Below are positions 3,021 to 46,238 of a DNA stretch of 64,000 nucleotides, in pieces (the stretch's first letter is position 1; each line of letters begins with the position of its first letter). Origin of the DNA: Rubrobacter tropicus (GTDB lineage: Bacteria; Actinomycetota; Rubrobacteria; Rubrobacterales; Rubrobacteraceae); assembly GCF_011492945.1 (NCBI RefSeq), contig NZ_CP045119.1, positions 1,302,001 to 1,366,000 of the forward strand. The letters run 5' to 3'. The position numbers and the translations under genes are program-made. The notes beneath the pieces are model-generated. The model saw nothing but the letters and a program-made list of their open reading frames with translations. It was not told the origin of the DNA and ran no database searches.

Positions 3021-4007
3021 ATGATCCTCGCCATAGAGACCTCCTGCGACGACACCTGCGCCGCTGTAATACGGCCCGACGGCCGCAAAGCCCTCTCGAA
3101 CGTGGTCCACACCCAGACCGAGCACGCCCGCTACGGCGGCGTCGTCCCCGAGGTCGCATCGCGTGCCCACCTCGAACGGCTGGACGGGGTGATCGAAAAA
3201 GCGCTCGCTGACGCCGGCACGGACCTCGAAGGAATTACCGGCGTCGCCGTGACGGTGAGGCCCGGTCTCATAGGGGCGCTCCTGGTCGGCGTCGCGGCCG
3301 CGAAGGGGATCGCCTACGCCCGCCGGCTGCCGCTCGTCCCCGTCAACCACCTGGAGGGCCACGTCGCGGCGGCCTACCTCGCGCAGCCCGACCTGGAACC
3401 CCCGTTCGTGGCCCTGATCGCCTCCGGCGGGCACACCGCCCTCTACTCCGTGAACGGCGAGGGCATGAGCCTCCTGGGTGAAACGCTGGACGACGCGGCG
3501 GGGGAAGCGCTGGACAAGGGGGCCAGGATGCTCGGCCTCGGCTTCCCCGGTGGGCCTGAGATCTCACGCGCCGCCGCAAACGGCGACCCGGCCCGCCACG
3601 AGTTTCCCGTGGGACTCAGGGACAAGAACAACCTCGACTTCAGCTTCTCGGGTCTCAAGACGAGCCTCCTCTACAAGCTCAAAGCCCTGGACGAGGATGG
3701 GGCGCGCGAGGAGCTGCCGCACCTGGCCGCCGGCTACGAGCACGCCGTGGTCGAAGCCCTCTCCCGCAAGCTCCTGCGCGCCGCCGAAGCCGGAGACGCG
3801 CAGACGGTCGTGGTCGCGGGGGGCGTCGCGGCAAACGGGCTCTTGCGCCGCACCCTGGAAGAAGAGTGCGGACGGCGCGGCCTCAGGCTCGTGATCCCGC
3901 CCCCCGGGTTGTGTACGGATAACGCCGCCATGATCGGGGCCGCGGCCCCGCTCTCGCGCGCCGTCCCCTTCCCCGAATACCTGACGCTAAATGCCCGGAG
4001 CGTGTAG
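3021..4007 (+). CDS. tsaD: tRNA N6-adenosine threonylcarbamoyltransferase TsaD
   Basis: TsaD transfers the threonylcarbamoyl group to A37 of tRNAs. The 328-residue protein starts MILAIETSCDDTCAAV, carries the iron/zinc-binding pair H110 and H114 in NHLEGH, the ASGGHTAL segment, and the late metal residue in TDNAAMIG, and is of normal family length. The ATG has no ribosome site and follows an extended -10 closely. It is separated from tsaE-tsaB-rimI by a convergent small gene, so it has its own promoter. Its TAG stop lies inside the REP-like hairpin that starts at 4004. Confidence 0.96.
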   Translation: MILAIETSCDDTCAAVIRPDGRKALSNVVHTQTEHARYGGVVPEVASRAHLERLDGVIEKALADAGTDLEGITGVAVTVRPGLIGALLVGVAAAKGIAYARRLPLVPVNHLEGHVAAAYLAQPDLEPPFVALIASGGHTALYSVNGEGMSLLGETLDDAAGEALDKGARMLGLGFPGGPEISRAAANGDPARHEFPVGLRDKNNLDFSFSGLKTSLLYKLKALDEDGAREELPHLAAGYEHAVVEALSRKLLRAAEAGDAQTVVVAGGVAANGLLRRTLEEECGRRGLRLVIPPPGLCTDNAAMIGAAAPLSRAVPFPEYLTLNARSV

Positions 4008-4032
4008 GGGCGGGCTTCAAACCCGCCCCTAC
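4004..4032. repeat. REP-like hairpin, copy R1
   Basis: A perfect hairpin with arms GTAGGGGCGGG and its complement around a short TTCAA-type loop. It supplies the TAG stop of tsaD. A second copy lies at 5401-5424, again on a stop codon. It probably also works as a transcription terminator or RNA-stabilising element. Confidence 0.75.
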
Positions 4033-4102
4033 GTCCTTGACGGGTGGGGGACTATCTGTGAGAGTGGTCGCGTCTGTTGGAGCGCCGGGAAAGGGGTGAT
4101 GG

Positions 4103-5404
4103 GTGCCGCGGTTCGGCTGGATGAGGCTCGCGTACTTGTTCCTGATCCTGACGATCCTCGTGGCCCTGGCCCGGTTCGGAGACCCCGACGCCGAGGCCCG
4201 CTCCCTGTCCGCGCGTACGCCCGACGCCCCGAAAGCCCCAACGGTACAGGAGAATCCCGAGGCCCCGCGGTTGACGGAGGAAGTAGTCTCGTCCCTGGAA
4301 GACATACGCGGGAGCACGGGGCGGCCGAACGTGGGCCCGGATATCACCGAGCCTCGCCTGCCAGCGGCCCGGATCCCGCACGGGTCAGAACCGTCGGCTA
4401 GAGACGAGCAGAAGCCGGAGGTCGAAGAAACGCAGGCCTCCGCGACCGAACCGCCCGTCTTCTACCGTCCTTCGGTCCCGGACGCCGGACCCGATTCCGG
4501 ACCCGTCTGCGGGAACGTCGGTGGGGCCCCGAAGGACGGCAGGATCGTGTTCCCCCTGGAGAAGCGTTTCTACTACTCCTACGACGACACCTGGGGGGCG
4601 CCGCGCGCGCAGGGCGGACACGAGGGGACGGACCTGATGACCCCGCCGGGCGTGCCCGAGTACGCCATCACCGACGGCACCGTGGTCCCGGTCGCCGGGT
4701 CCGACGCGGACGGATGGAACACCCTCGGCGGCCACACGGTGATGGTCCGGGCCGACTACTCGATAGGCCCGATCCGTCAGGGCGACCTCTTCTATTACGC
4801 CCACCTGGAGCGGGAGAGCGCGCTACCCATCGGCGCCAGGGTCCAGGCCGGCCAGGTCGTCGGCTACGCGGGCGACACGGGACAGGGCCCGCCCGTGACC
4901 CGTGGCCTCTTCCCGCCCCACCTGCACCTCGGCTGGTACGACGGGACCGGCGACCGGCAAGAAGCCGACTCCGGCGCCATGAACCCGTACCCGCTCCTCG
5001 AATGGATCAAGTCCAACGGCGGCGCCGTCACCGGCGACTCCGACGCCCGCTTCTGCGAGGCCCCGAGCCCCACCCCGCCCCCCCCCTCGAACCCGGGCAT
5101 CAGCCCCGACCTGGACACCGGCTCGAACGACCCGAAGCCGAGCCCGGCCCAAAAAGATGCCCGCCAAGAGAACCCGAAACCCGCCGCCAAGCCCGACCGC
5201 CAGAACCGTCCCGAAAAACAGCCCCGCAAAGATCCCACAACCGCCCCCGCAAAACCCCAGCACACAAACCGACCGGACGACACCAAGCCCACCAAGCCCG
5301 ATCAACCCAAGCCGAACCCCGTAAAACCCGAACCCCCCACCCAGCCAGGGCCGTCGCACGAACAATACGCCGCCGCGGGAGCAACCCTCAAACCGCACCC
5401 GTAG
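4103..5404 (+). CDS. Secreted or membrane-anchored M23 family metallopeptidase
   Basis: The 433-residue protein has an N-terminal hydrophobic segment (residues 7-23, signal peptide or anchor), a low-complexity linker, and an M23 (LytM) domain at about 150-310. Zinc ligands are visible: HEGTD (first His and Asp) and PHLHLGWY (HxH). M23 enzymes cut peptidoglycan cross-bridges or act as activators of other hydrolases. The C-terminal 100 residues are rich in Pro, Lys and Asp, typical of a wall-associating tail. GTG 4103 follows AAAGGGG; the ATG at codon 7 is an alternative. The stop codon lies within the REP-like hairpin R2. Confidence 0.88.
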   Translation: MPRFGWMRLAYLFLILTILVALARFGDPDAEARSLSARTPDAPKAPTVQENPEAPRLTEEVVSSLEDIRGSTGRPNVGPDITEPRLPAARIPHGSEPSARDEQKPEVEETQASATEPPVFYRPSVPDAGPDSGPVCGNVGGAPKDGRIVFPLEKRFYYSYDDTWGAPRAQGGHEGTDLMTPPGVPEYAITDGTVVPVAGSDADGWNTLGGHTVMVRADYSIGPIRQGDLFYYAHLERESALPIGARVQAGQVVGYAGDTGQGPPVTRGLFPPHLHLGWYDGTGDRQEADSGAMNPYPLLEWIKSNGGAVTGDSDARFCEAPSPTPPPPSNPGISPDLDTGSNDPKPSPAQKDARQENPKPAAKPDRQNRPEKQPRKDPTTAPAKPQHTNRPDDTKPTKPDQPKPNPVKPEPPTQPGPSHEQYAAAGATLKPHP

Positions 5405-5424
5405 GGGCGGGTTTCAAACCCGCC
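5401..5424. repeat. REP-like hairpin, copy R2
   Basis: GTAGGGGCGGGTTTC followed by the complementary AAACCCGCC matches R1 at 4004-4032 apart from the last arm bases. It provides the TAG stop of the M23 gene and lies between two convergent genes, where it can serve as a terminator in both directions. Confidence 0.7.
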
Positions 5425-5483
5425 CGCGAACCCAAGACCCGCCCCAACACAACCCCCCGCCACCAGGAACCGTCCGCCGGAGC

Positions 5484-5729
5484 CTACCGTGAACCGAAAA
5501 CCCTCTCGCGCTCTTCGCCGGTAAGCACCGTGCTCCGGGCGCATTCCATGCAGGTCGCTTGCAGGTTTTTGGGGTGGTCCTTGAGGTAGACGAAGACAAG
5601 CTTCTTCGGGACCCGGTAGAGGATGTGCCGGGTTTCGGTGCCGCAGCGGTCGCAGGGGCGTTGCTCGCGGCCTAGCTCTGTCGGGATCCTGCTGAGGCCC
5701 GGTATCCTGTCTGTTCGGAAGACGCCCAC
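5484..5729 (-). CDS. Small zinc-ribbon-like protein divergent to groEL
   Basis: The 81-residue product has two CxxC pairs (CDRCG and CMEC) separated by about 33 residues with a central beta-rich segment ([15 protein letters not shown]), consistent with a zinc ribbon. No specific family recognised. GTG 5729 is taken as the start because further upstream the frame runs through the groEL promoter and operator. It is divergent from groEL and shares the 115-base regulatory region, so heat-shock control is possible. Confidence 0.6.
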
Positions 5730-5732
5730 GGT

Positions 5733-5761
5733 TTGAATTGTACCCCGGCCAAGACTATACT
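5733..5761 (+). promoter_or_regulatory. Sigma-A type promoter of groEL
   Basis: TTGAAT (5733-5738) and TATACT (5756-5761) are separated by 17 bases, a near-consensus housekeeping promoter. The expected start point is about 5768, immediately before the CIRCE element. Confidence 0.85.
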
Positions 5762-5768
5762 TTCGCCG

Positions 5769-5795
5769 CTGGCACTCGTAGGACGAGAGTGCCAA
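5769..5795. promoter_or_regulatory. CIRCE operator (HrcA binding site)
   Basis: CTGGCACTC and GAGTGCCAA form an inverted repeat with exactly nine bases between, matching the CIRCE consensus apart from the outermost positions. It overlaps the predicted transcription start, as expected for repression by HrcA at normal temperature. Confidence 0.93.
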
Positions 5796-5843
5796 ACGCG
5801 GGAAAGCGATCGCGTGTTGCGTAGTCTAGCAGAGGAGGCAGCA

Positions 5844-7466
5844 GTGGCGCATAAGGAGCTAAGGTTCAATACCGAGGCGCGTCGGGCGCTGGAGGCGGGC
5901 GTCAACAAGCTCGCCGAGGCGGTCAAGATCACGCTCGGGCCGAAGGGTCAGTACGTGGTGCTCGACAAGAAGTTCGGCTCGCCGACCATCACCAACGACG
6001 GCGTAACGATCGCCAGGGAGATCGAGCTCGAGGACATCTTCGAGAACCAGGGCGCCCAGCTCGTCAAGGAAGTCGCCACCAAGACCAACGACGTCGCGGG
6101 CGACGGGACGACCACGGCCACCGTGCTCGCCCAGACCATCGTGCGCGAGGGCCTCAAGAACGTCGCCGCCGGCGCCAACCCGGTCATCCTCCGGGCGGGC
6201 ATCGACAAGGCCGTAGCCGTCGCCGTCGAGGCCGTCAAGAACCAGTCGCAGGAGATCTCGGGTCGCGATGAGATCTCGCGGGTCGGCGCGATTTCCGCCC
6301 GCTCGGACGAGATCGGCAACGTCATAGCCGACGCCATAGACAAGGTCGGCAAGGACGGCGTCGTGAACGTCGAGGAGGGCCAGACCTTCGGGATGGACCT
6401 CGAGTTCACCGAGGGTATGCAGTTCGACAAGGGCTACCTCTCCCCGTACTTCGTCACCGACCAGGAGCGCATGGAGGCCGTCCTCGACGACCCCTACGTC
6501 CTGATCGCCAACCAGAAGATCGGCAACGTCCAGGACGTGCTGCCGGTCCTCAACCAGGTGATGCAGTCCAACCGCCCGCTCCTCATAGTCTCCGAGGACG
6601 TCGAGGGCGAGGCTTTGGCCACCCTCATCGTCAACAAGCTGCGCGGCACCTTCAACGCGGCCGCGGTCAAGGCCCCCGGCTTCGGTGATCGGCGCAAGAG
6701 GATGCTCGAGGACATCGCCATCCTTACCGGTGGCGAGGTCATCACCGAGGAGCTCGGCCTCAAGCTCGAGAACACCCAGCTCAACCAGCTCGGCAGCGCG
6801 AGGCGCGTCGTCATCACCAAGGACAACACGGTCATCGTGGACGGCGCCGGTGACGTGGAGGCCATCAAGGGCCGCATCAACCAGATCCGCTCGGAGATAG
6901 AGTCCACCGACTCTGACTTCGACCGCGAGAAGCTGCAGGAGCGTCTGGCGAAGCTGGCCGGCGGTGTCGCCGTCATCAAGGTCGGCGCGGCCACCGAGAC
7001 GGAGCTCAAGGAGCGCAAGCACCGCGTCGAGGACGCCCTGTCCGCGACCCGGGCCGCCCTGGAAGAGGGCATCGTTCCCGGCGGTGGCGTGGCGCTGCTC
7101 AAGGCGCAGTCCCCGGTCGGCGACCTCGTGGAGCAGCTCGACGGCGACGAGAGGACCGGTGCCCGCATCGTGCATCGCGCCCTCGAGGAGCCGATCCGTC
7201 AGATCGCCTTCAACGCCGGCGCCGACGGCTCTATCGTCGTCGACAAGGTCCGCAACCAGGCCGACTCCCAGGGCTTCAACGCCCTGACCGGCGAGTACGA
7301 GGACCTGGTCCAGGCCGGCGTCATCGATCCTGCCATGGTCACCAGGAGCGCGTTGCAGAACGCCGCCTCCATCGGTTCGCTCATCGTCACCACCAACGTG
7401 GTCGTCGCCGAGCCCGAGGAGGACGCGCCCGCCATGCCCGCAGGCGGCATGGGCGGCATGATGTAA
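5844..7466 (+). CDS. groEL: Chaperonin GroEL (60 kDa)
   Basis: The 540-residue protein carries the standard GroEL features: [19 protein letters not shown] near the N-terminus, the ATPase segment [13 protein letters not shown], and the C-terminal GGMGGMM tail. It forms the double-ring folding chamber. GTG 5844 follows GAGGAGG with normal spacing and gives the family N-terminus (AHKELRFN). No groES precedes or follows it, so it is an isolated groEL copy of the kind common in Actinobacteria. Control is by the CIRCE/HrcA site and the promoter at 5733-5761; a terminator follows at 7491. Confidence 0.98.
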
Positions 7467-11216: not shown

Positions 11217-11404
11217 CAGCATCTCAGCAGGTCAGCATCTCAGCAGGTCAGCATCTCAGCAGGTCAGCATCTCAGCAGGTCAGCCTTTTGACGGGGTTTC
11301 GTAGCCGAGCTCGATGAGGCTACCGGGGTAGTCCTATCGGACGTTTCTTGGGCCAAAAAGAGGGGTGGGGCGTGGCCTGTTTGCTGACCGGCTGACCGGC
11401 TGAA
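11217..11404. repeat. Intergenic long palindrome A1 with four 16-base tandem repeats
   Basis: CAGCATCTCAGCAGGT occurs four times head to tail (11217-11280). After about 100 bases comes GCTGACCG twice followed by GCTGA (11383-11404), nearly complementary to the repeated unit, so the region can fold into a long imperfect hairpin. It begins eight bases after the guaA stop. This is one of several such elements in the window. Confidence 0.75.
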
Positions 11405-35197: not shown

Positions 35198-36148
35198 ATG
35201 AAGGTCGGATATTTCCTTTCTTGCGAAGAGTTCGGGCCGGGGGAGTTGGTAGAGCAGGCGCGGATGGCCGAGGAGGCGGGGTTCGAGGCGCTGTGGATCA
35301 GCGACCATTACCATCCCTGGGTCGAGGCGCAGGGCAACAGCCCGTTCGTGTGGAGCGTGATAGGGGGCCTCTCCCAGACGACGGCGCTGCCCGTTACTAC
35401 CGCCGTCACCTGCCCGACGATGCGTATCCACCCGGCCGTTATCGCGCAGGCCGCCGCGACCTCCGCCGTGATGCTCGGGGGGCGCTTCAACCTGGGCATC
35501 GGCACCGGAGAGGCGCTGAACGAGCACATCTTCGGCGACGCGTGGCCCTCGGCCGACGTGAGGCTCGAGATGCTTGAGGAGTCGGTGGAGGTCATGCGCC
35601 TCTTGTGGGAGGGCGGCACGAAGGACTACGAGGGCCGGCACTACGTCGTGGAGAACGCCAGAATCTACACGCTGCCCGACGAGCCGCCGCCCGTTCTCAT
35701 CTCCGGGTTCGGCCCGAAGGCCGTGCGGCTTGCGGCGGAGATCGGGGACGGTTACGTGAACGTCGGCCCCGACGCGGAGCTTCTGGAACTCTACCGTTCT
35801 TCGGGCGGCGGGAACAAGCCCGCGCACAGCGCCTTCAAGGCCTGCTACGGGGACGACGAGGCGGAGTGCGTGAGGACGGCGCACCGCACTTGGCCGAACG
35901 AGGGGCTGCCCGGGGAGCTGGCGCAGGTCCTGCCGACGCCTCGGCACTTCGAGCAGGCCAGCCAACTCGTTACGGAGGAGATGATGGCCGAGGCGGTGCC
36001 CTGCGGGCCGGACCCCGAGAAGTATCGTGGGATGCTGCGGCAGTTCGCCGAGGCCGGCTACGACGAGGTCTACGTGCAGCAGATCGGCCCCAACCAGAAA
36101 GCCTTCTTCGACTTCTTCGGCAAGGAGATCCTGCCGGAGTTCGGCTAG
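35198..36148 (+). CDS. F420-type luciferase-like oxidoreductase (glucose-6-phosphate dehydrogenase-related)
   Basis: The 316-residue protein belongs to the luciferase-like monooxygenase fold. ALWISDHYHPWVEAQGNSPFVWSVIG, PTMRIHPAVIAQAAAT and GRFNLGIGTGEALNEHIFG are typical of the F420-dependent glucose-6-phosphate dehydrogenase-like group. It would reduce coenzyme F420 or use it for a redox reaction in the cytoplasm; the substrate cannot be told from sequence. ATG 35198 follows GGGAGG. Confidence 0.88.
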   Translation: MKVGYFLSCEEFGPGELVEQARMAEEAGFEALWISDHYHPWVEAQGNSPFVWSVIGGLSQTTALPVTTAVTCPTMRIHPAVIAQAAATSAVMLGGRFNLGIGTGEALNEHIFGDAWPSADVRLEMLEESVEVMRLLWEGGTKDYEGRHYVVENARIYTLPDEPPPVLISGFGPKAVRLAAEIGDGYVNVGPDAELLELYRSSGGGNKPAHSAFKACYGDDEAECVRTAHRTWPNEGLPGELAQVLPTPRHFEQASQLVTEEMMAEAVPCGPDPEKYRGMLRQFAEAGYDEVYVQQIGPNQKAFFDFFGKEILPEFG

Positions 36149-36184
36149 AGAAAACCCTTCAAGACCTTCCTCCCCGCGCCCGGA

Positions 36185-36190
36185 TATAAT
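36185..36190 (+). promoter_or_regulatory. Consensus -10 box upstream of the DUF4230 gene
   Basis: A perfect TATAAT 38 bases before the GTG start, with no clear -35 at 16-18 bases upstream. Confidence 0.45.
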
Positions 36191-36227
36191 CCGCAGGAAT
36201 TCTTCTTTTCTCGCGGGGAGGTCGGTT

Positions 36228-36863
36228 GTGGGCAAAAAAGGCGGGAGTTTCGCTACCACGTTCGTTCTGGCGCTGGTCATCGTCGTCTTGAGCGTGGGGC
36301 TCGGCGTCGGGATCAGCCGCTTCGACTTCGCCGAGAGGGTGCCTTTGTTGGGTCCGCTCCTGCAGGAGAGGCCGGCCCGGACGACCACGAGCCCGGTCGT
36401 CGTCGAGGGGGTCAGGGAGCTCGATCAACTCGCCACCGTGCGCACTACCGAGTCGATCATAGTGACGCGTGAGAGCGGAGGAGACTTTCTGGAGCGTCTG
36501 TTCTCCGGCGAGGAAGTCCTCCTTGTGGCGTCCGGGAACGTCGAGGCGGGGGTGGATCTCTCGGAGATAGGCGACGGTGACGTGGAGGTCAGGGACGACA
36601 CCGTCACGATTCGCCTGCCCGAGCCGGAGGTCCTCTCCGCCAGCCTGGACGAAGACAGGACCCGCGTCTACGACCGCGACTACAGCCTCCTGAACGTGCG
36701 GCCCGACGACGACCTGGTGGAAGAGGCCCGCGCCACGGCGGAGGAGAGGATCGAGGCAGCCGCCCGCGAGAACGGCGTCCTCGGCACCGCGGAGACGAAC
36801 GCCGAGAACTCGATCCGTGCTTTCGTAGAGGTTCTGGGCTTCAAAGAGGTGCGTTTCGAGTAA
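36228..36863 (+). CDS. DUF4230 membrane-anchored protein
   Basis: The 211-residue product has a single N-terminal membrane helix (about 9-27) and an extracytoplasmic DUF4230-type domain with VRELDQLATVRTTESIIVTRE, VLLVASGNVEAGVDLSEI and EVRDDTVTIRLPEPEVLSASLD in order, ending with a helix and short strand. GTG 36228 follows GGGGAGG by six bases. DUF4230 has no established function. The gene stands alone between the oxidoreductase and the LuxR regulator. Confidence 0.82.
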   Translation: MGKKGGSFATTFVLALVIVVLSVGLGVGISRFDFAERVPLLGPLLQERPARTTTSPVVVEGVRELDQLATVRTTESIIVTRESGGDFLERLFSGEEVLLVASGNVEAGVDLSEIGDGDVEVRDDTVTIRLPEPEVLSASLDEDRTRVYDRDYSLLNVRPDDDLVEEARATAEERIEAAARENGVLGTAETNAENSIRAFVEVLGFKEVRFE

Positions 36864-36950
36864 GGTGCTCCGGTTCGGGGGTGCGTTCGGCGTCTTTGGG
36901 CTGTAACCTGTAGGCGGCACGGACCCCGACGGGAGTCGGAGCGCCAGGCG

Positions 36951-39413
36951 ATGACGGCACCGCGCAGCACCGGAGGAAACCCCACGCGGACTTTTGCCCG
37001 GCCGGGCCGGACGGGCGGTTCGCCGCTGCAGCTGTCGAGCTTTGTGGGGCGGGAGAGGGAGATCGGGGAGGTCGAGCACCTCCTCGAACAGACCCGCCTG
37101 CTCACGTTGACGGGCTCGGGCGGCGCTGGCAAGACCCGCCTCGCGCTCGCGGCCGTGGACCGGGTCGCCTACAGGTTCGCAGACGGTGTGGCGTGGGTGT
37201 GGCTCTCCGGGATCTCTGAGGGGGACCTCGTACCCGGCGCCGTCGCGTCGGCCGTTGGCGCGCGGGAGGCGCCGGGGCTCTCGCCCGTCGAGTCAGCCGT
37301 CGAGTGCCTGGAGGACGGGGAGTTTCTCCTCGTCCTGGACAACTGCGAGCATCTGGTGGAGGAGTGCGCGGCCCTGGCCGACCTGCTGCTGCGGTCCTGC
37401 CCTGGGTTGAAGCTCCTGACCACCAGCCGGGAGCTCCTGAACGTGGCGGGTGAGGTCGCCTGGCGGGTGCCTTCGCTCTCACTTCCGGACCCGAAAAGCG
37501 CGCAGGACCCCGCGGACCTCTTGCGCTTCGGGGCCGTCAGGCTCTTCGTCGAGCGGGCCGCGGCGGCGGCGCCCGGCTTCGCGCTGGACAAAGACAACGC
37601 GGCGGCGGTCGTGGACGTCTGCGAGAGGCTCGACGGTATACCCCTCGCCATAGAGTTGGCGGCGGCCCGGGTGAAGGTGCTTTCGGTGGAGCAGGTCGAC
37701 CGCCGCCTCGACGACGCCCTCGGGCTTCTCACGGAAGGAAGGAGGTCCGCCGTTCCCCGTCACAGGACCTTGCGCGGCGCGCTCGACTGGAGCCACGAGT
37801 TGCTCCCGGAGCAGGAGCGGGTCCTTTTTCGCCGGCTCGCGGTGTTCGTGGACGGGTTCGGGATAGGGATGGCCGAGAAGGTCTGCGCGGGCGACGGCCT
37901 GGAAGAGGACGCCGTGTTGCTCTTGCTCTCGCGCCTGGTGGATAAATCCCTGGTCTACGTGGTCGACAGGGACGGGGAAGCCCGCTACAGGCTGCTGGCG
38001 ATGGTCCGCCAGTACGCGCAGGAGAAGCTCGGATACTCTTCGGAAGGGCCGGGGATCCGGCGCCGGCACGCCGCCTCTTTCGTGGAGTTCGCCGAACGCG
38101 CGGAGCCGGAACTCCTCGGCGCCGGCCAGGAGGCCTGGCTCGACCGCCTGGAGTCGGACCTCGGCAACCTCCGGGCGGCGATGGGCTGGGCCCTCGGCCC
38201 GGCCGGGCGCGACGCCGAGACGGGGCTGAGGCTGGCCGGCGCCCTGTGGCGCTTCTGTTACCTGCGCGGCCACTACGGGCAGGGCCGCGGCTGGCTCGAG
38301 GGGGCGCTCGCGCTAGAAGGGCCGGCCCCCGCGGCGGCGCGCGCGAAGGCCCTCACCGGGGCCGGCGTCCTCGCCCTGCTCCGGTGCGACTACGAACGGG
38401 CCGAAGAGCGGCTTGGGGAGGGGCTCACGCTCCACCGGGAGCTCGGCGACCGGCCCGGCGAGGCCTCGGCCCTGCAGATGCTCGGTAGCGTGGCGCGGGA
38501 GCGCGGCCGGTACGCCCGGGCCGAGGCGTACCACGAGGAGAGCCTGGCGTTGTGGCGCGGGCTCGGCGACGGATACGAGGCCGCCCGCTCGCTCAACTAC
38601 CTCGGGTTCGTGGCCTGGTTGCAAGAAAAATACGCTCGGACCGTGGAGCTGTGCGAGTCGTCCCTGGAGACTTTTCGGGATCTCGGGGATGCGGAGGGGG
38701 TTACGTGGGCCCTGATCAACCTCGGCTCCGCCGCGCTTTACGGCGGAGAGCCCGACAGGGCCAGGACGCTCCTCGAAGAAGCCCTCTCCGCCGCCCGCCG
38801 CGTGGGCTACAGGGAGGGTGTGGCCTGGTCCCTGAACCAGCTCGGCGCCGCCGCGCACCGTAGTGGGGATGGCCCCGGTGCCGGGAAGATGCTGCGGGAG
38901 AGCCTGAAGGTGCATCGGGAACTGGGCGACCGGTGGCGGATCGCCAGCGTGATCGAAGGCCTCGCAACAGCGGCGCGGGTCCTCCCGGAGCGGTCCGCGA
39001 GGCTCTTCGGGGCGGCGGAGGCCCTGCGCGAGAGCCTCTCCGCCCCGATACCCCCCGTGGAGCGGGCCGACCGCGACGACGGGCTCGCCGCCGCGCGCGC
39101 CGCCCTTGGCGAAGAGCGGTTCGAGAAGGCGCTGGCCGCGGGACGGGCGGTGGGCCTCGAAGAGGCCACGGCCCTCGCCATGCAAGAAGCGCCGGCCCCC
39201 CGCTCGGCCGCCCCGATGCCGCACGGCTTGAGCGCGCGCGAGGTCGAGGTCCTGGGATTGGTCGCAGAGGGGCTCACGAACGCCGAGGTAGCCGAGAAGC
39301 TGTTCCTGAGCCCCCGCACCGTGGGCCACCATCTCCGAACCATCTACAGAAAACTCGGCGTCCCCTCGCGGGCCGCCGCCGCCAAAGCCGCGCTCGAACG
39401 AGGGCTGATCTAG
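36951..39413 (+). CDS. STAND ATPase-TPR-LuxR transcriptional regulator 1
   Basis: In the 820-residue protein an NB-ARC/AfsR-like NTPase comes first (FVGREREI, Walker A GSGGAGKTRLA at about 56-66, Walker B FLLVLDNCEHL, TTSRELLNVAGE sensor), then a winged-helix linker, about six TPR repeats (GRYARAEAYHEESLALWRGLGD type) and a C-terminal GerE/LuxR HTH (GLSAREVEVLGLVAEGLTNAEVAEKLFLSPRTVGHHLRTIYRKLGV). Such proteins are signal-dependent activators. It precedes the SnoaL-CDO-DoxX-cupin cluster. A 133-base stretch (37473-37605) is almost identical to the second regulator at 43020-43152. Confidence 0.93.
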   Translation: MTAPRSTGGNPTRTFARPGRTGGSPLQLSSFVGREREIGEVEHLLEQTRLLTLTGSGGAGKTRLALAAVDRVAYRFADGVAWVWLSGISEGDLVPGAVASAVGAREAPGLSPVESAVECLEDGEFLLVLDNCEHLVEECAALADLLLRSCPGLKLLTTSRELLNVAGEVAWRVPSLSLPDPKSAQDPADLLRFGAVRLFVERAAAAAPGFALDKDNAAAVVDVCERLDGIPLAIELAAARVKVLSVEQVDRRLDDALGLLTEGRRSAVPRHRTLRGALDWSHELLPEQERVLFRRLAVFVDGFGIGMAEKVCAGDGLEEDAVLLLLSRLVDKSLVYVVDRDGEARYRLLAMVRQYAQEKLGYSSEGPGIRRRHAASFVEFAERAEPELLGAGQEAWLDRLESDLGNLRAAMGWALGPAGRDAETGLRLAGALWRFCYLRGHYGQGRGWLEGALALEGPAPAAARAKALTGAGVLALLRCDYERAEERLGEGLTLHRELGDRPGEASALQMLGSVARERGRYARAEAYHEESLALWRGLGDGYEAARSLNYLGFVAWLQEKYARTVELCESSLETFRDLGDAEGVTWALINLGSAALYGGEPDRARTLLEEALSAARRVGYREGVAWSLNQLGAAAHRSGDGPGAGKMLRESLKVHRELGDRWRIASVIEGLATAARVLPERSARLFGAAEALRESLSAPIPPVERADRDDGLAAARAALGEERFEKALAAGRAVGLEEATALAMQEAPAPRSAAPMPHGLSAREVEVLGLVAEGLTNAEVAEKLFLSPRTVGHHLRTIYRKLGVPSRAAAAKAALERGLI

Positions 39414-39455
39414 GCCGATAGCCGTCGGCTTTCAGCCATCAGCTTTCAGCAAGAC
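39414..39455. repeat. Short type A intergenic repeat A2
   Basis: Right after the regulator stop come units GGCTTTCAGCC, ATCAGCTTTCAGC of the type A family (compare 50613 and 54527). No clear second arm was found, so this may be a half element. Confidence 0.5.
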
Positions 39456-39677
39456 CGGAAATCGAGGGCAGGCGCCGCTTCTTTCTACGACGTTTGCGTT
39501 ACGCATTCCTGCCTGGCCAACCGATTTCGCCTTCGGAATGAAGTTGCGTAGGTCTACCGATGGACGGGCACCCCCTCGCTCCTAACATCTTTCTGCAAGC
39601 TCCCGAAAAGTTTTCAAGCCTGAGTCGGACGGAGGAGACGAGGTCGGTCGGCGAGGGCCACAGAGAAAGGAAAGCGC

Positions 39678-40130
39678 GTGTCGAAAGAAGAGAACAAGAG
39701 GACTATCCGGCGCATCTACGACGAGCTTTGGAACGAACGGAAGCTGGAGGTAGCCGACGAGCTGATCGCCAGAGGTGCCGTCAACTACGATACCGGGTTC
39801 GTCGCGCAGCCGTTCGGCCCCGAAGAGATGAAAAGGACCGTCAGGGTGGTCACCGTCGGCTTCCCGGACAACCGCCACGAGGTGGAAGAGGTGGTGGCCG
39901 AGGGCGACGCGGTCGTCTTGCGCTGCACCCTGACCGGCACCCACGAGGGGGAGTTCATGGGCATGCCGCCGACCGGCAGGAGGATAGAGGTGGGCGAGAT
40001 CCACATCTACCGCTTGAGGGAAGGCAAGGCTGTCGAGCACCGCGTCGGCCGCGACGACCTGGGCGCCATGCGCCAGCTTGGCGTCATCCACGCCCCCGAA
40101 CCGTCCATCGACGCGGCAAGGAGCGCGTAA
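39678..40130 (+). CDS. SnoaL-like / ester cyclase family protein
   Basis: The 150-residue protein has the SnoaL/NTF2-like fold pattern: IRRIYDELWNERKLEVADELI at the N-terminus, GPEEMKRTVRVVTVGFPDNRHEVEEVVAEGDAVVLRCTLTGTHEGEFMGMPPTGRRIEVGEIHIYRLREGKAVEHRVGRDD reduced here to its key marks FMGMPPTGR and HIYRL. GTG 39678 follows AGAAAGGAAA. Members act on small polyketide-like or other hydrophobic substrates or bind ligands. The stop overlaps the next gene's ATG (TAATG), so both are coupled. Confidence 0.82.
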   Translation: MSKEENKRTIRRIYDELWNERKLEVADELIARGAVNYDTGFVAQPFGPEEMKRTVRVVTVGFPDNRHEVEEVVAEGDAVVLRCTLTGTHEGEFMGMPPTGRRIEVGEIHIYRLREGKAVEHRVGRDDLGAMRQLGVIHAPEPSIDAARSA

Positions 40131-40780
40131 TGGGCATCTTTTCGAAGTGCCGCAACGGCGGCCTCAAGCTGTTGTGTCCGGTGGCGCGTCGGACTACCCC
40201 GTTCGCGCCCGACGTCGACGGGTTGCAAGAGATCTCCGCGCTTTCCACGGAAACGGCCCTGCGAAAGGCCGTCCCGTTCCTGGAAGATCTCGCAGAGGAC
40301 CCCTCCTTTCTGGAGGTCGAGGTCCCCTCGATCCTGAATGAGGCGGAGGGGGCCGAGAACTGGTACGTGGCCCGTCGCCACGAGGGCGACGCCTACTCCC
40401 TGCAGGTCTTCGTCTGGCCCTCGGGTACGGGGACCAGGGTCCACGACCACTCCTCCTGGGGCGTCTACCGCTGCGTCGCGGGCTCCTTGCTGGAGAAACG
40501 CTACACGCGCCTCGACGACGGCTCCCGCCCCGACCACGCCCGTCTGGAGAAGGCGTGGCAGATCCGGTGGAGCCCGGATGACGGTGCCTCGACCGTGCTG
40601 CCGGGCGATGGAGGCATCCACAGCATGACGAACCTGGGAGACGAGACCGCCGTCTCGGTCCACCTCTACGGTCCGAGAACGGCGGGGATCGACGGCCGGG
40701 ACTACGACCCCTCCCGCGACCACGTCTGCGACCGGGCAGAAGATCCGGGAGAAGCCGGCGGGCAGTCCAGGGCCGCGTAG
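40130..40780 (+). CDS. Cysteine dioxygenase-like cupin
   Basis: The 216-residue protein resembles cysteine dioxygenases and related thiol dioxygenases: YSLQVFVWPSGTGTRVHDHSSWGVYRCVAG gives the two iron-binding histidines in HDH, and VSVHLYGP gives the third. The reaction would oxidise cysteine or a similar thiol to its sulfinic acid. The ATG overlaps the SnoaL stop. The C-terminal tail is acidic. Substrate identity is inferred only from family. Confidence 0.8.
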   Translation: MGIFSKCRNGGLKLLCPVARRTTPFAPDVDGLQEISALSTETALRKAVPFLEDLAEDPSFLEVEVPSILNEAEGAENWYVARRHEGDAYSLQVFVWPSGTGTRVHDHSSWGVYRCVAGSLLEKRYTRLDDGSRPDHARLEKAWQIRWSPDDGASTVLPGDGGIHSMTNLGDETAVSVHLYGPRTAGIDGRDYDPSRDHVCDRAEDPGEAGGQSRAA

Positions 40781-40821
40781 GGCGACCCCGCAGAATCAGA
40801 ATCTTTGCCGGGGGAGAACCT

Positions 40822-41015
40822 TTGAAAAACCAGGAGAAGATCGAAAAAACGACGAGCGCCGCGAAGCGACGAACCTACAACCCGGTTCAGAAAGATTACG
40901 CGACATTCCTCGAGACGGGCGGCGAGCGCTCCCTGGGATGCGCAGGATGATGGGGATCATAGGCAGGCACATGGAAGTCTTGCCGCCGGACGAGGTTCGG
41001 GAAAGGGTTGAATGA
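40822..41015 (+). CDS. Small protein before doxX, broken by a frameshift
   Basis: TTG 40822 follows GGGGGAG. The first frame reads about 38 residues (MKNQEKIEK through TYNPVQKDYATFLETGGERSLG) and stops at about 40950. A second frame continues with MRRMMGIIGRHMEVLPPDEVRERVE and its TGA overlaps the doxX ATG (ATGATGA). Adding one G to the run 40935-40937 joins both into a 64-residue product with correct length. The N-terminal part resembles the start of small cupins, but no metal site follows. The tight overlap with doxX supports a real gene. Confidence 0.5.
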
Positions 41016-41380
41016 TGAACACACTCTTGTGGACGATGCAGGCGATGCTGGCCTTCGTGTTTCTGGCGCACGGGCTGCTATTCCTGTTCCCCTCGAAAGC
41101 GATGCGCAAGATCAAGGAGCAGTCGCCGTTCCCGGCCGGGTTGATGCAGCTTATCTACGTGGCTGAGGTCCTCGCGCCGTTCGGCCTCATCTTGCCCGGC
41201 CTGACCGGGCTTCTTCCCTGGCTTACCCCGCTGGCGGCGGCCGGCCTCGTGCCCATCATGTGCGGCGCGGTGCCTTTCCACCTGTCGCGCGGGGAGGTTC
41301 CGCCGACCGTTATCACCGCCGTTTTGCTCGCGCTCGCGGCTTTCGTGGCGTACGCGAGATGGTTCGCGCTCCCGCTCTAA
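41012..41380 (+). CDS. DoxX family membrane protein
   Basis: The 122-residue protein has four membrane segments with the family pattern MQAMLAFVFLAHGLLFLFPS and LIYVAEVLAPFGLILPGLTG. DoxX-type proteins are small inner-membrane proteins often linked to redox stress or thiosulfate/sulfur metabolism. Here it is coupled to the small gene upstream and lies beside a thiol dioxygenase-like gene, so a thiol or redox role is plausible. Confidence 0.85.
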   Translation: MMNTLLWTMQAMLAFVFLAHGLLFLFPSKAMRKIKEQSPFPAGLMQLIYVAEVLAPFGLILPGLTGLLPWLTPLAAAGLVPIMCGAVPFHLSRGEVPPTVITAVLLALAAFVAYARWFALPL

Positions 41381-41413
41381 CAAGTACACCAGACTCGAAA
41401 AAAAGGAGAAGTT

Positions 41414-42049
41414 ATGAGCCGTGCAGGAGACGTACACGAAAATCCGGTGACCGGCGAGTACGTGGTCGTCCGCGTCGGTTCCGAGGAGTCCGGCGGGAGG
41501 CTGGCAATCGCCGACCTCTACGTCAGCCCGGGCGGGGCGGTGGCCGGGGAGCACGTCCACCCGGCCATCGAGGAGGTCTTCACGGTGGTCGCGGGTAGCG
41601 TCGGCTTTCGGGTCGACGGGCGCGAGGACGTGGCCGGACCGGGTCGCAGGCTCGTCGTCCCGCCCGGGGTCGCCCATTACTGGTGGAATGCCGGGGACGA
41701 GGAGGCGCACGTCGTCGTCGAGCTGCGGGGCGAGGCGCGTCTGCTCGATGGTTTCGTAACCATGCTCTCCAACCTCTTCGGGATGGCCCGCGAGGGCAAG
41801 ACGGACGCGAAGGGCAGGCCGAACCTCTTGCGGGCCGCGCTCCTCGCCAGGGAGTTCGACGACGTGATCCGCTTCGTCCAGCCCCCGCGGGCGCTGCAGA
41901 AGGTCCTGTTCGGGGTCCTCGCGCCCGTCGCGAGGCTCCTCGGTTACCGGGCCGTCTACCCCGGGTACGGACCTTCGGGGTTCGTCGAGGTCGAGCCCTG
42001 GCCCGGGTACGGGCGGTCCGGATCTTCTCGGCAACCGCAAACGGGCTGA
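41414..42049 (+). CDS. Cupin-domain protein with helical C-terminal extension
   Basis: In the 211-residue protein the cupin motifs are GEHVHPAIEEVFTVVAGSVGFRVDG and PPGVAHYWWNAGDEEAHVVVELRG (about residues 45-110), giving three possible metal ligands. The C-terminal 95 residues are predicted largely helical and contain NLLRAALLAREFDDVIRF. AAGGAG lies ahead of ATG 41414. It closes the cluster that follows LuxR regulator 1. No specific substrate can be named. Confidence 0.83.
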   Translation: MSRAGDVHENPVTGEYVVVRVGSEESGGRLAIADLYVSPGGAVAGEHVHPAIEEVFTVVAGSVGFRVDGREDVAGPGRRLVVPPGVAHYWWNAGDEEAHVVVELRGEARLLDGFVTMLSNLFGMAREGKTDAKGRPNLLRAALLAREFDDVIRFVQPPRALQKVLFGVLAPVARLLGYRAVYPGYGPSGFVEVEPWPGYGRSGSSRQPQTG

Positions 42050-42500
42050 TTCGACCGCGTAGCCCGTAACGTCGACGGAACCGTCCACGGGCGTCGTGAT
42101 GCCCGACGGACCACGGCGGTCCTTGCGCGTCGCATCCGGGACCCGTGAGGGAAGCACTCACCCGCGGGCCTCCCGCCGCACCCGGGTTTACAGCGGTTTG
42201 CGGAAGGATGGGGCCCATCGCGAACGGGCCACGAGTTGCGGAGGTTTTGGGACTTTCAGGTTCTTAGGCTTTTAGGGGTGGAGGGTCGGGGTCCCCTTCC
42301 GGTTTCGAGACGCGCCCCTCAAAACCTTGATGCCTCAAAACCCCAAAACCTTTATAACCTCCGGGTTCGGTCCTCGTGCAACCCGGTATATCTGGAAGAT
42401 CACGCGTTTGGGTGATGCGCGGCGGCATCCGGGGCTTCAAGATACTTGGGTGCGGTCGCCGACCGACGTCGTTCCGGTGCCCGCGGAAGGATGGTTAGCA
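42050..42500. other. 450-base intergenic region with palindrome C
   Basis: Between the cupin stop and the second LuxR regulator I see no coding frame with support. It contains the long palindrome C (42241-42362) and otherwise unique sequence. A promoter for the regulator is expected in 42363-42490 but no strong -10/-35 pair is evident. Confidence 0.6.
42241..42362. repeat. Intergenic long palindrome C
   Basis: The left arm (42241-42278) is made of units like GGTTTTGGGA and TTCTTAGGCTTTTAGG; the right arm (42315-42362) of CCTCAAAACC, CCCCAAAACC units, complementary in register with mismatches. The loop is about 36 bases. The design equals palindromes A and B but with a different base unit. 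Confidence 0.65.
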
Positions 42501-44954
42501 GTGTCGGGCAACGCGGTGATGGATACGAAACGGGCGCGGGGACGCCCGCCCGGCACCCCGCCGTTCGAGGTAAGCAGCCTGGTAGGACGCGGGCGGGAGC
42601 TGGCCGAGGTAAGCTCCCTGCTCGTCTCGGGCCGGCTCCTGACGCTCGTCGGACCGGGGGGATGCGGCAAGACGCGGCTCGCGCTCGCCGCCGCCAACGC
42701 GGTCGCGAACGCGGCCGGGGGTTTCCGGGACGGGGTCTTCTGGGTCGAGCTCGACGCCCTCTCGGACCCGGCGCTCCTGCCCGAGGCCGCAGCACGGGTC
42801 CTCGGTGTGCGATGGGGGACGGGCGAGTCGCCGACGGCGGCGATGCTGGACCACCTGAAGACCAGGGAGTCGCTGGTGGTGCTGGACAACTGCGAGCACC
42901 TGATCGAGGCTTGCGCCGATCTCGTAGACGCCCTGCTCCGCTCCTGTCCGGGGTTGACGGTCCTGACCACCAGCCGCGAAGCGCTCCGCCTGGCGGGTGA
43001 GGTCGCCTGGCCCGTCCCCTCGCTCTCACTTCCGGACCCGAAAAGCGCCCAGGACCCCGCGGACCTCTTGCGCTTCGGGGCCGTCAGGCTCTTCGTCGAG
43101 CGGGCCGCGGCGGCGGCGCCCGGCTTCGCGCTGGACAAAGACAACGCGGCGGACGTCGTCAGGATCTGCGGCAGGCTCGACGGCATACCCCTTGCCATCG
43201 AGCTCGCCGCCGCGAGGGTCAGGGTGCTCTCGCCGGCCCAGATCTCCGCCCGCCTCGACGACCGGTTCCTCCTGCTCACCGGCGGCGGCCGGACCGTGAT
43301 GCCCCGCCACAGGACCCTGAAAGCCACCATGGACTGGAGCTACGGGCTGCTGGCCCCGGAAGAAAAGTTGCTCTTCCGCAGGCTCTCTGTGTTCGCGGGC
43401 GGTTTCTCGCTCGGGGCCGCCGAGGCGGTGGGCGCGGGCGGCGCCGTCGAGGGGAACGAGGTCCTCGGGTTGCTGTCCTGCCTGGTGGACAAGTCGCTGG
43501 TCGTCGCGGTTCCCGGCGGGGACGAGGTCCGCTACCGGATGCTCGAGACCGTGCTCCGTTACGCCGCGGAGAAGCTGGAGGAGTCGGGGGAGGCCTGTGC
43601 CGTCAGGACCAGGCACGCGGGCTTCTTCCTGGAGTTGTCCGGGGAGGCCGGCACGGGGCTTCTCGGGGAGCATCAGGTCGCGTGGCTCGGGAGGCTCGAT
43701 GTCGACCAGGGCAACCTCCGCGCTGCTTTGGGATGGTACGCGAACGGGGAGGACCCCGCCCCGGCCCTGCGGATGTCGGGCGCGCTGTGGTGGTTCTGGT
43801 TTTTACGCGGGCGCTACGACGAGGGGCGCGGTTGGCTCGACGCGGCGCTCACCGCGGGCGATGACGCTCCGGCCCCGCTGCGCGCGAAGGCGCTCGTGGC
43901 GGCGGGGTATTTCGCTTTCCTGCGCTCCGAGTACGCGCCGGCGAGGTGGCGCATCGAGGAAGGCCTTGCCCTCTACCGGAGCCTCGACGACGCCCCGGGC
44001 GTCGCCGGCGCCGTACGGGTGCTCGGGAGCATCGCGCGCGAGCAGGGCCGCTACGCGGAGGCCGAGACTCTCCACTCCGAGAGCCTGGCGCTGTGCCGCG
44101 AGCACGGCGACGCCCGGGGCGTCGCCCAGTCCCTCAACCACCTCGGCTTCGTGGCCTGGCTCCGGGGGGATCTCGGCCGGGCGGAAGACCTTTGCTCGGA
44201 GGCCCTGGATGCCTTCAGGAACCTCGGCGACGGCGAAGGCGTTGCCTGGTCCTTGATGAACCTCGGGTTCGCGGCGCTCTATGGTGGAGATCACACCAGG
44301 GCGGCCGCCCTGCTGGATGAGGGCCTGGCGCTCTCCAGGAGGGCCGGTTACCGGGAGGCCGCCGCCTGGTCGCTGAACGGGCTTGGCGTCCTGGCGCGGC
44401 GCGAGGATCGGCCCGGCCGGGCGGCGGAGCTGCTTGGCGAGAGCCTGGCCCTGCACCGGGACCTCGGCGACCGGTGGCGCACGGCCAGCCTGTTCGAGGA
44501 ACTGGCGGGGACCTCCGCCGACCCCGAGCGGGCGGCGATCCTGCTGGGCGCGGCCGGAGGGCTGCGCGAGGTTCTCTCGGACCCCGTGCCGCCCTGCGAG
44601 CGGCCAGACCGCGAACGCGACGCCGCGGTCGCGAGGGCCGCGCTCGGCGAGGATTCCTTCGCCGGGGCAAGGGCGAAAGGCGCGGCGATGGACCTGCACC
44701 ACGTCTACGAGTACGCCCTCGAGGCGGAGGTCCGCGCGGCCCCGAACGGCGCCGACCCGGCGATGGGTCTCAGCGCCCGCGAGGTCGAGGTGCTCGGCTT
44801 CGTGGCCGAGGGTTTCACCGACCATCAGGTGGCGGGCAAGCTCTACCTCAGCCCCCGCACCGTCGGCCAGCACCTCAGGAACGTCTACCGCAAGCTCGGC
44901 GTCAACTCCCGCACCGCCGCCACGCGCGCGGCGATCGAGCACGGCCTCATCTAG
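42501..44954 (+). CDS. STAND ATPase-TPR-LuxR transcriptional regulator 2
   Basis: The 817-residue paralogue of regulator 1 has VGRGRELAEV, Walker A GPGGCGKTRLA, LVVLDNCEHL, winged helix, TPR repeats and C-terminal HTH GLSAREVEVLGFVAEGFTDHQVAGKLYLSPRTVGQHL. GTG 42501 follows GGAAGG; ATG 42519 is an alternative and a longer in-frame ORF begins inside palindrome C. It precedes the second cluster of small genes in the same orientation. The near-identical 133-base patch shared with regulator 1 contrasts with strongly diverged flanks. Confidence 0.92.
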   Translation: MSGNAVMDTKRARGRPPGTPPFEVSSLVGRGRELAEVSSLLVSGRLLTLVGPGGCGKTRLALAAANAVANAAGGFRDGVFWVELDALSDPALLPEAAARVLGVRWGTGESPTAAMLDHLKTRESLVVLDNCEHLIEACADLVDALLRSCPGLTVLTTSREALRLAGEVAWPVPSLSLPDPKSAQDPADLLRFGAVRLFVERAAAAAPGFALDKDNAADVVRICGRLDGIPLAIELAAARVRVLSPAQISARLDDRFLLLTGGGRTVMPRHRTLKATMDWSYGLLAPEEKLLFRRLSVFAGGFSLGAAEAVGAGGAVEGNEVLGLLSCLVDKSLVVAVPGGDEVRYRMLETVLRYAAEKLEESGEACAVRTRHAGFFLELSGEAGTGLLGEHQVAWLGRLDVDQGNLRAALGWYANGEDPAPALRMSGALWWFWFLRGRYDEGRGWLDAALTAGDDAPAPLRAKALVAAGYFAFLRSEYAPARWRIEEGLALYRSLDDAPGVAGAVRVLGSIAREQGRYAEAETLHSESLALCREHGDARGVAQSLNHLGFVAWLRGDLGRAEDLCSEALDAFRNLGDGEGVAWSLMNLGFAALYGGDHTRAAALLDEGLALSRRAGYREAAAWSLNGLGVLARREDRPGRAAELLGESLALHRDLGDRWRTASLFEELAGTSADPERAAILLGAAGGLREVLSDPVPPCERPDRERDAAVARAALGEDSFAGARAKGAAMDLHHVYEYALEAEVRAAPNGADPAMGLSAREVEVLGFVAEGFTDHQVAGKLYLSPRTVGQHLRNVYRKLGVNSRTAATRAAIEHGLI

Positions 44955-44998
44955 AGCTGTCAGCCATCGGCTTTCGGAAGCTGGTTGCTTCTGAGGGG
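44955..44998. repeat. Type A intergenic repeat A3
   Basis: AGCTGTCAGCC, ATCGGCTTTCGG and AAGCTGG follow the regulator stop codon without a gap. The units match A4 and A5. Only a short imperfect hairpin can be drawn. Confidence 0.5.
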
Positions 44999-45173
44999 TG
45001 CTCTAGAACAGCCCCTTTGGAGGCCTTAGTAATGCATCGGTACTAGGCGCACCTACCACGCGCGGACTTCGCGCGATTACGTAGTTCGCGCGATGCGCAG
45101 GTGTGTCGCCGGGGGCATGCTGAGATCCGACGTTAAGGAAACAGGCCAGACAAGGTCGAAGGAGGTGAACGGC

Positions 45174-45377
45174 ATGCGGGAGAGTTGCTACTGCGGCCGG
45201 GCGGGCGAGATCGAGGACAGAGAGCCCGTTACGGACGGCGACGGAAGGCGGGCGCTCAAGTGTCCCGATTGCGGCCATCTGGACCACCTGTCGTGGCTGT
45301 CCGCGGACGCCAGGGTCCGCGTGTTCGAAGAGGCGAAGCGCCGCGAAGCCGACCGGAGGATGCCGCTCACGGCGTGA
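45174..45377 (+). CDS. Small zinc-finger-like protein
   Basis: The 67-residue product has CYCG near the N-terminus and CPDCGHLDH in the middle, four cysteines (plus histidines) that can bind one zinc, followed by an amphipathic helix (DARVRVFEEAKRREADRR). GGAGGTG lies seven bases before ATG 45174, a strong site. Longer in-frame starts (45093) have none. Family not recognised. Confidence 0.7.
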   Translation: MRESCYCGRAGEIEDREPVTDGDGRRALKCPDCGHLDHLSWLSADARVRVFEEAKRREADRRMPLTA

Positions 45378-45441
45378 AGAGGCGGTATTGGCCGGGGCCG
45401 GAACGCCCCGGCCCTTCTCGAACGATATGGGGTGACACAAG

Positions 45442-45939
45442 ATGAAAAAGATGGCGGTCCTTGCGCTCGTGACGATGCTCGTACTGGTTCCGGCCGGGGC
45501 GGCGATGGCGGCAAACCTCGTCGGTACCAGCGCGCCCGAGACAATATCGGGCACCGGTTCAAAAGACGTGATCAAGGGCCTTGGGGGCGGCGACGCGCTC
45601 CACGGCCTGGGCGGCGCGGACGGCGTCTACGGCGGCTTCGGTGACGACCTGATCCGGGGCGGCCCCGGCGGGGACAACCCCGGCTTCGACATCGGCCCCA
45701 ACGTTCCCGGCCTCTACGGCAGCTTCGGCGACGACCGGGTCGAGGGCAACGGCGGTGACGACCTGATAGTGGGCGGGTCGGGCGCCGACCTCTTGCTCGG
45801 CGGTGCCGGCGACGACCGGATCGGCGACCCGGGTCCGGATTCTGTCGACGTGATCCGCTGCGGAACCGGCGAGGATTTCGTGGAAGCCGGCCACAACGAC
45901 GTCGTGGACCCCGACTGCGAGAGGGTGAACCGCTCGTAG
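45442..45939 (+). CDS. Secreted RTX-like calcium-binding repeat protein
   Basis: The 165-residue protein has a signal peptide (MKKMAVLALVTMLVLVPAGAAMA) and then hemolysin-type nonapeptide repeats GGxGDD/GGxGAD (GLGGADGVYGGFGDD, GNGGDDLIVGGSGADLLLGGAGDD). The C-terminus has two cysteines (RCGTGEDFVEAGHNDVVDPDCERV). It would fold as a calcium-bound beta roll outside the cell. A related C-terminal motif occurs in the truncated gene at 63699-64000. Confidence 0.85.
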   Translation: MKKMAVLALVTMLVLVPAGAAMAANLVGTSAPETISGTGSKDVIKGLGGGDALHGLGGADGVYGGFGDDLIRGGPGGDNPGFDIGPNVPGLYGSFGDDRVEGNGGDDLIVGGSGADLLLGGAGDDRIGDPGPDSVDVIRCGTGEDFVEAGHNDVVDPDCERVNRS

Positions 45940-45962
45940 GGGAGATCGGAAGGAGAACGGAC

Positions 45963-46238
45963 ATGAAAGAGTCGGTAAAGCACGCCGGGATCATCGGCAG
46001 CGTCCCCGGTGCGGCCGGGCGCGAGGTCCCGTCGAAGTCGGGCTGGATCTCCCTGATAGACGATACCGCGCGTCGGCTGACGCGCCGCGAACCACGCACC
46101 ACCGCGGTCGATACGGACACGCGGACCGGGGAGCGAAACGCGCGCGACCCCGGTACGTCCCGTTCCGCGCTAGACGCGGGCCTTACAGGGGGCATGACGT
46201 TCCTGTTCGACGGGTCCGGGAAGGGCCGGAGGCGCTGA
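45963..46238 (+). CDS. Hypothetical protein, 91 aa
   Basis: ATG 45963 follows AAGGAG by seven bases, 24 bases after the RTX-like gene, so co-transcription is likely. The product has no recognised domain, is rich in Arg, Thr and Gly, and contains SKSGWISLIDDTARRLTRREPR as its most ordered part. The C-terminal third looks less protein-like, so a frame error near the end cannot be excluded. Confidence 0.45.
   Translation: MKESVKHAGIIGSVPGAAGREVPSKSGWISLIDDTARRLTRREPRTTAVDTDTRTGERNARDPGTSRSALDAGLTGGMTFLFDGSGKGRRR

Follow-up and report, generated by a model that had tools for sequence, protein, structure and literature searches.

Gene conversion in bacteria has long been known, and the pair of regulator genes described here, called A and B, is very probably a new example of this well-known process in a little-studied gene family. 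Work on the tufA and tufB genes of Salmonella (PMC5485169) describes non-reciprocal copying from one gene into another on a single chromosome, mostly as continuous tracts, which is also the pattern proposed here for A and B. The tuf genes have 12 differences over 1185 nt, whereas A and B differ at approximately 36% of positions and are alike in one short patch. The Salmonella data are well described by a model in which the walk extends 500 nt both ways, and by this measure the A/B tract is rather short. Short tracts between actinobacterial paralogues, as in A and B, are reported in a preprint on Mycobacterium tuberculosis (PMC13061034), with a median of 101 bp, so that the length of the A/B tract is ordinary. 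That work covers 151 isolates and has its hotspots in PE-PGRS, PPE and ESX genes, whereas the present case concerns regulator genes in one genome. Gene conversion in the STAND-LuxR family was not found among the matches listed for bacterial gene conversion, for LuxR/STAND proteins and for Rubrobacter LuxR proteins (titles and beginnings of abstracts, with subscription literature mostly outside the scope), and a term search of the text of a census of actinobacterial LuxR proteins (PMC3466318) gave no occurrence of "gene conversion".

Genes A and B (Table 1) are paralogues in the same orientation, 5.5 kb apart, in the genome of a member of the Rubrobacteraceae. The genome consists of 4.58 Mb in two contigs, and the window, i.e. 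the whole 64 kb stretch of DNA that was analysed, is part of the contig of 4.38 Mb. The predicted proteins are 59% identical across residues 17-820 of A. For gene B, the ATG at position 42519, giving 811 amino acids, is preferred as the probable start over the upstream TTG. Both proteins have the architecture of MalT/LAL-like regulators, with an NTPase module that is weakly recognized by Pfam, TPR-type repeats and a C-terminal GerE/LuxR helix-turn-helix. In A, Pfam identified TPR_12 (3.2e-25) and GerE (8.9e-18), and the NTPase models nSTAND1, AAA_16 and NB-ARC gave matches which were all under the cut-off. In B, TPR_12 (6.8e-29) and GerE (9.4e-16) were found together with AAA_22 (3.3e-6), the sole NTPase model to pass in either protein, and narrowly so (27.9 against a cut-off of 27). 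With E up to 0.001, NCBIfam gave matches to 21 families for A and to 22 for B, none of which reached its cut-off. Neither protein passes as a MalT equivalog, since the NCBIfam model has a cut-off of 537 bits and the two scored 39.7 and 44.6, with the best matching stretch in the HTH part. An open reading frame located between A and B (39560-40780) has a match to cysteine dioxygenase type I in residues 278-374 of 406 (Pfam, 1.8e-9), preceded by about 270 unassigned residues, and a short open reading frame with RTX-type calcium-binding repeats (45442-45939) is found approximately 490 bases downstream of gene B.

Table 1 Positions of the features discussed (window coordinates unless a contig is given)
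Feature	Position	Strand	Remarks
Gene A, STAND-like ATPase / TPR / LuxR-type HTH regulator	36951..39413	+	820 aa; open frame
Gene B, paralogue of A	42327..44954	+	875 aa from TTG; open frame
Tract in gene A, very probably converted	37473..37605	+	one mismatch in 133 to 43020-43152; begins at residue 175 and covers 44 whole codons
Tract in gene B, very probably converted	43020..43152	+	1 of 133 differs from 37473-37605
Sole difference inside the tract	37502 (G) vs 43049 (C)	+	GCG/GCC, synonymous Ala
21-nt identical block 5' of the tract	37444..37464 (A) = 42991..43011 (B)	+	from the alignment
Two STAND-LuxR genes of genome G002, contig 66 (L263)	276-2828 and 3634-6192	minus	1457-nt block at 1255-2711 and 4622-6078
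MutS_V/MutL loci L261, L262 of the own genome	C1:189546-191488, C1:39436-41001		second MutL match over cut-off lies elsewhere from the MutS_V-MutL pair

An earlier note on this DNA had described a patch of 133 bases with a single difference between two otherwise clearly diverged regulator genes. Direct comparison of A and B gave the same count and located the mismatch (Table 1): in the alignment at offset 5547 the patch starts with an exact run of 29 nt (37473/43020), and after one mismatched base a second exact run of 103 nt (37503/43050) follows. It is in frame in both genes, and in gene A it is situated in the NTPase module, with a TTSRE stretch before and a GIPLAIELAA stretch after it, which probably correspond to the sensor-like motif and the GLPL-like motif known from STAND NTPases. 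On both sides of the patch the genes are 63-64% identical. The expectation that synonymous divergence would fall sharply in the patch held, since pS was 0.549 on the left, 0.042 in the patch (45 codons, of which the last is only partly inside the tract) and 0.549 on the right. Where A and B encode the same amino acid, the codons were identical at 49 of 94 positions on the left, 43 of 44 in the patch and 167 of 327 on the right, and none of 10000 shuffles of the synonymous positions matched the observed tract score. Outside the tract the amino acid identity of A and B was 0.56, about the level (up to 0.60) that each of them reaches with fragments of other genomes. The 21-nt identical block upstream is separated from the patch by 8 nt with four mismatches. 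The exchanged piece may be about 162 nt long if this block belongs to a discontinuous tract; alternatively, the block may be a chance identity in a conserved motif.

The patch was found at two places in its own genome, the third-best place being 69% identical, and it was not found in the 59 other genomes searched. In 17 of these there was a match with E up to 0.001; by E-value, the best one was 85% identical over 59 nt, and none was longer or better among the up to 14 candidates scored per genome. A 38-nt pattern from the patch had no exact match in a collection of named genomes, which may lack this genome and others very close to it; with 3 mismatches allowed it had 2 matches in the window and 0 in 100 shuffles. 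Among the homologues aligning over enough of the tract and its flanks (105 for A and 106 for B, from 109 others, with flanks of 150 residues on each side), the mean amino acid identity was 0.44 in the tract and 0.51 (A) or 0.54 (B) in the flanks. Equally high identity in distant species, which the earlier note had named as the observation that would speak for constraint, was thus absent from these genomes. Strong selection, whether it acts on the protein or on an intragenic DNA or RNA element, would hold the patch identical in both copies, and it is in keeping with this that the near-perfect identity extends to synonymous sites. Nevertheless, homologues vary more in the patch than in the flanks, the patch is shared by none of the 59 genomes, and the region 36000-46000 had no match to Rfam families even at E 1. 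The lack of conservation in relatives counts against selection, unless the element is species-specific, and constraint on the protein or on a nucleic-acid element, the latter being the other possibility raised in the earlier note, is an exceedingly improbable cause of the identity.

It is just as improbable that the assembler partly collapsed or joined two loci. Both copies of the patch lie in a 4.38 Mb contig, inside two open genes, and have diverged flanks on both sides, so that a chimera is unlikely; sequences of such low identity should not collapse, and with direct copies 5.5 kb apart there should be just one linear order in which no sequence is lost. A third source, either a lost paralogue or DNA of another strain, could instead have given the same piece to A and B independently. 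In favour of this, uneven identity in the family is also seen between genomes (see below), and the direction of transfer between A and B is not separable by codon usage: the log-likelihood difference of the tract was -1.2, compared with -0.6 (sd 1.8) for segments of A and 0.1 (sd 2.2) for segments of B, and GC3 was 0.884 in both genes. However, two events at one spot would be required, and a third close copy is found neither in the own genome nor in the 59 others, nor does the 38-nt pattern match the named genomes exactly, within the limits of that collection. A third source is thus very unlikely, though somewhat less so than selection or misassembly.

The A/B patch is very probably a recent ectopic gene-conversion tract. 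Conversion between neighbouring paralogues, as proposed in the earlier note, agrees with the fall in pS, with the shuffles, with the presence of only two copies in the genome and with the absence of conservation in homologues. A and B would be old duplicates. In the recent past, in the course of recombinational repair or of replication, one gene would have supplied a strand that paired with the other across their partial homology. About 130-160 bases would have been copied, presumably by RecA-type strand exchange and non-reciprocally, while the flanks were not exchanged. The conversion probably had no particular function. A strain in which A and B still have the sequences expected before such an exchange was not found.

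In one study (PMC5290159), MutS-MutL is described as missing in almost all Actinobacteria. The own genome has a MutS_V match well over the cut-off, directly followed by a MutL match which is also over the cut-off, and its best match to NucS_C was under the cut-off. The domain PF00488 is common to MutS and MutS2, and the MutS reading is favoured because MutL adjoins the MutS_V match. This suggests that the genome has mismatch repair, which would hinder exchange between sequences as diverged as A and B and thus counts against conversion. The idea that absent mismatch repair eased the exchange was not supported, as the MutS_V and MutL matches adjoin. Read as gene conversion, A and B would provide a clean natural case of exchange across a divergence of about 36%, and one from a genome that has matches to both MutS_V and MutL.

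To place A and B among their relatives, 135 loci of the own genome and its family were surveyed, all from the single gene family of STAND-LuxR regulators. Ten loci, namely L049, L059 and eight that belong to other families within the phylum, were left out, as were own-genome loci matching mainly in the HTH and two places in G015 (C62, C38). A tblastn match was obtained for 133 of the 135 loci, and 111 were kept once repeats had been removed. Of the 22 removed, 21 were identical over the overlap to a kept locus of the same genome; the remaining one, L144, is a real second gene and is absent from the pair counts. Exact runs were compared in all 429 within-genome and 5676 between-genome pairs. 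Ranked by the longest exact run within a genome, L150/L152 of G003 came first (168 nt) and A/B second (103 nt), and the 99th percentile was 59 nt within genomes versus 30 nt between genomes. The top between-genome runs (781, 198 and 181 nt) were among G009, G021 and G029, and these pairs are evidently orthologues. Of 404 within-genome pairs, 5 had a tract score of at least 20 and 3 a score of at least 35; for 5313 between-genome pairs the corresponding counts were 8 and 2. A strict criterion, which was fixed after the scores had been seen (a tract of at least 20 codons that is at least 90% identical, with at most 60% synonymous identity outside), selected 3 of 403 eligible within-genome and none of 5343 between-genome pairs (Fisher p 0.0003, as a guide only since the pairs are not independent). 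The excess within genomes is less marked when just the score is considered than under the strict criterion. Uneven synonymous identity occurred between genomes too, as among the 14 between-genome pairs listed six had 0 and one had 1 of 1000 shuffles reaching the observed value, and therefore not all mosaics in the family need within-genome exchange. The pair L089/L099 of G006, with a 72-nt exact run, a 391-codon stretch and 0.76 amino acid identity outside, was beyond the divergence filter.

Other members of the family in related genomes have probably undergone the same process. The exact 168-nt tract of L150/L152 in G003 has sharp edges, and the synonymous codons were identical at 55 of 55 positions inside it versus 160 of 282 outside. 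Outside the tract the two proteins have 0.52 amino acid identity to each other, less than each has to its nearest relatives among other loci (0.63 and 0.68 at most). In G002, L078 and L084 share an exact run of 72 nt, with a tract score that was reached in 2 of 1000 shuffles. Unlike the A/B patch, both regions are more alike than their flanks across homologues, with amino acid identities of 0.64 versus 0.52 for the G003 tract and 0.59 versus 0.37 for the 72-nt tract, and for this reason, and in the latter case also because of the shuffles, they give weaker support. The codon identity to homologues was, however, only 0.30 for the G003 tract and 0.33-0.34 for the 72-nt tract. G002 also contains two adjacent, otherwise diverged STAND-LuxR genes (L143/L144, Table 1) whose frames both contain a 1457-nt block that is exactly identical. 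At the borders of this block 64 of 100 and 48 of 100 bases are identical on the two sides, and the same genes have a second exact run of 47 nt (2801/6165) near their starts. The block reflects either conversion over a long tract or a mistake in the assembly, and as the assemblies of G002 and G003 are fragmented, errors are possible in both.

The mosaic structure of such genes can mislead trees and selection tests on the expanded STAND-LuxR family. The NTPase of plant NLR receptors is also of the STAND kind. According to work on the RPP8 family of NLR genes (PMC6771003), exchange occurs there among members of an expanded NTPase family, as proposed for A and B, although selection for diversity or a role in immunity is not in evidence for A and B. 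It is conceivable, but rather unlikely, that conversion between paralogues, in tracts both short and long and often within the NTPase module, keeps reshuffling the large family of STAND-LuxR regulators in the Rubrobacteraceae and gives chimeric regulators as among the plant receptors. Should such exchange be frequent, bacteria would offer a counterpart to the way in which NLR genes are reshuffled.

Relatives of the two genes were also found in other sequence collections. Among the best 80 of 475 relatives of gene B in named genomes, the top identity was 54%, in a Rubrobacteraceae metagenome-assembled genome. Relatives of gene A were present in 396 plasmid records, of which 388 were less than 60% identical and 8 were 60-80% identical, and none of the 80 pattern matches in viral contigs encoded a relative of gene A.

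Within the window, the 103-nt run shared by A and B is the longest exact repeat of at least 24 nt on either strand. The remaining repeats of this size were the 29-nt run of the patch itself, a 28-nt match (53537/55581) and a tandem array beginning at 11217. This array (11217-11284) has a 16-base unit, CAGCATCTCAGCAGGT, and is exact over 52 nt at an offset of 16.
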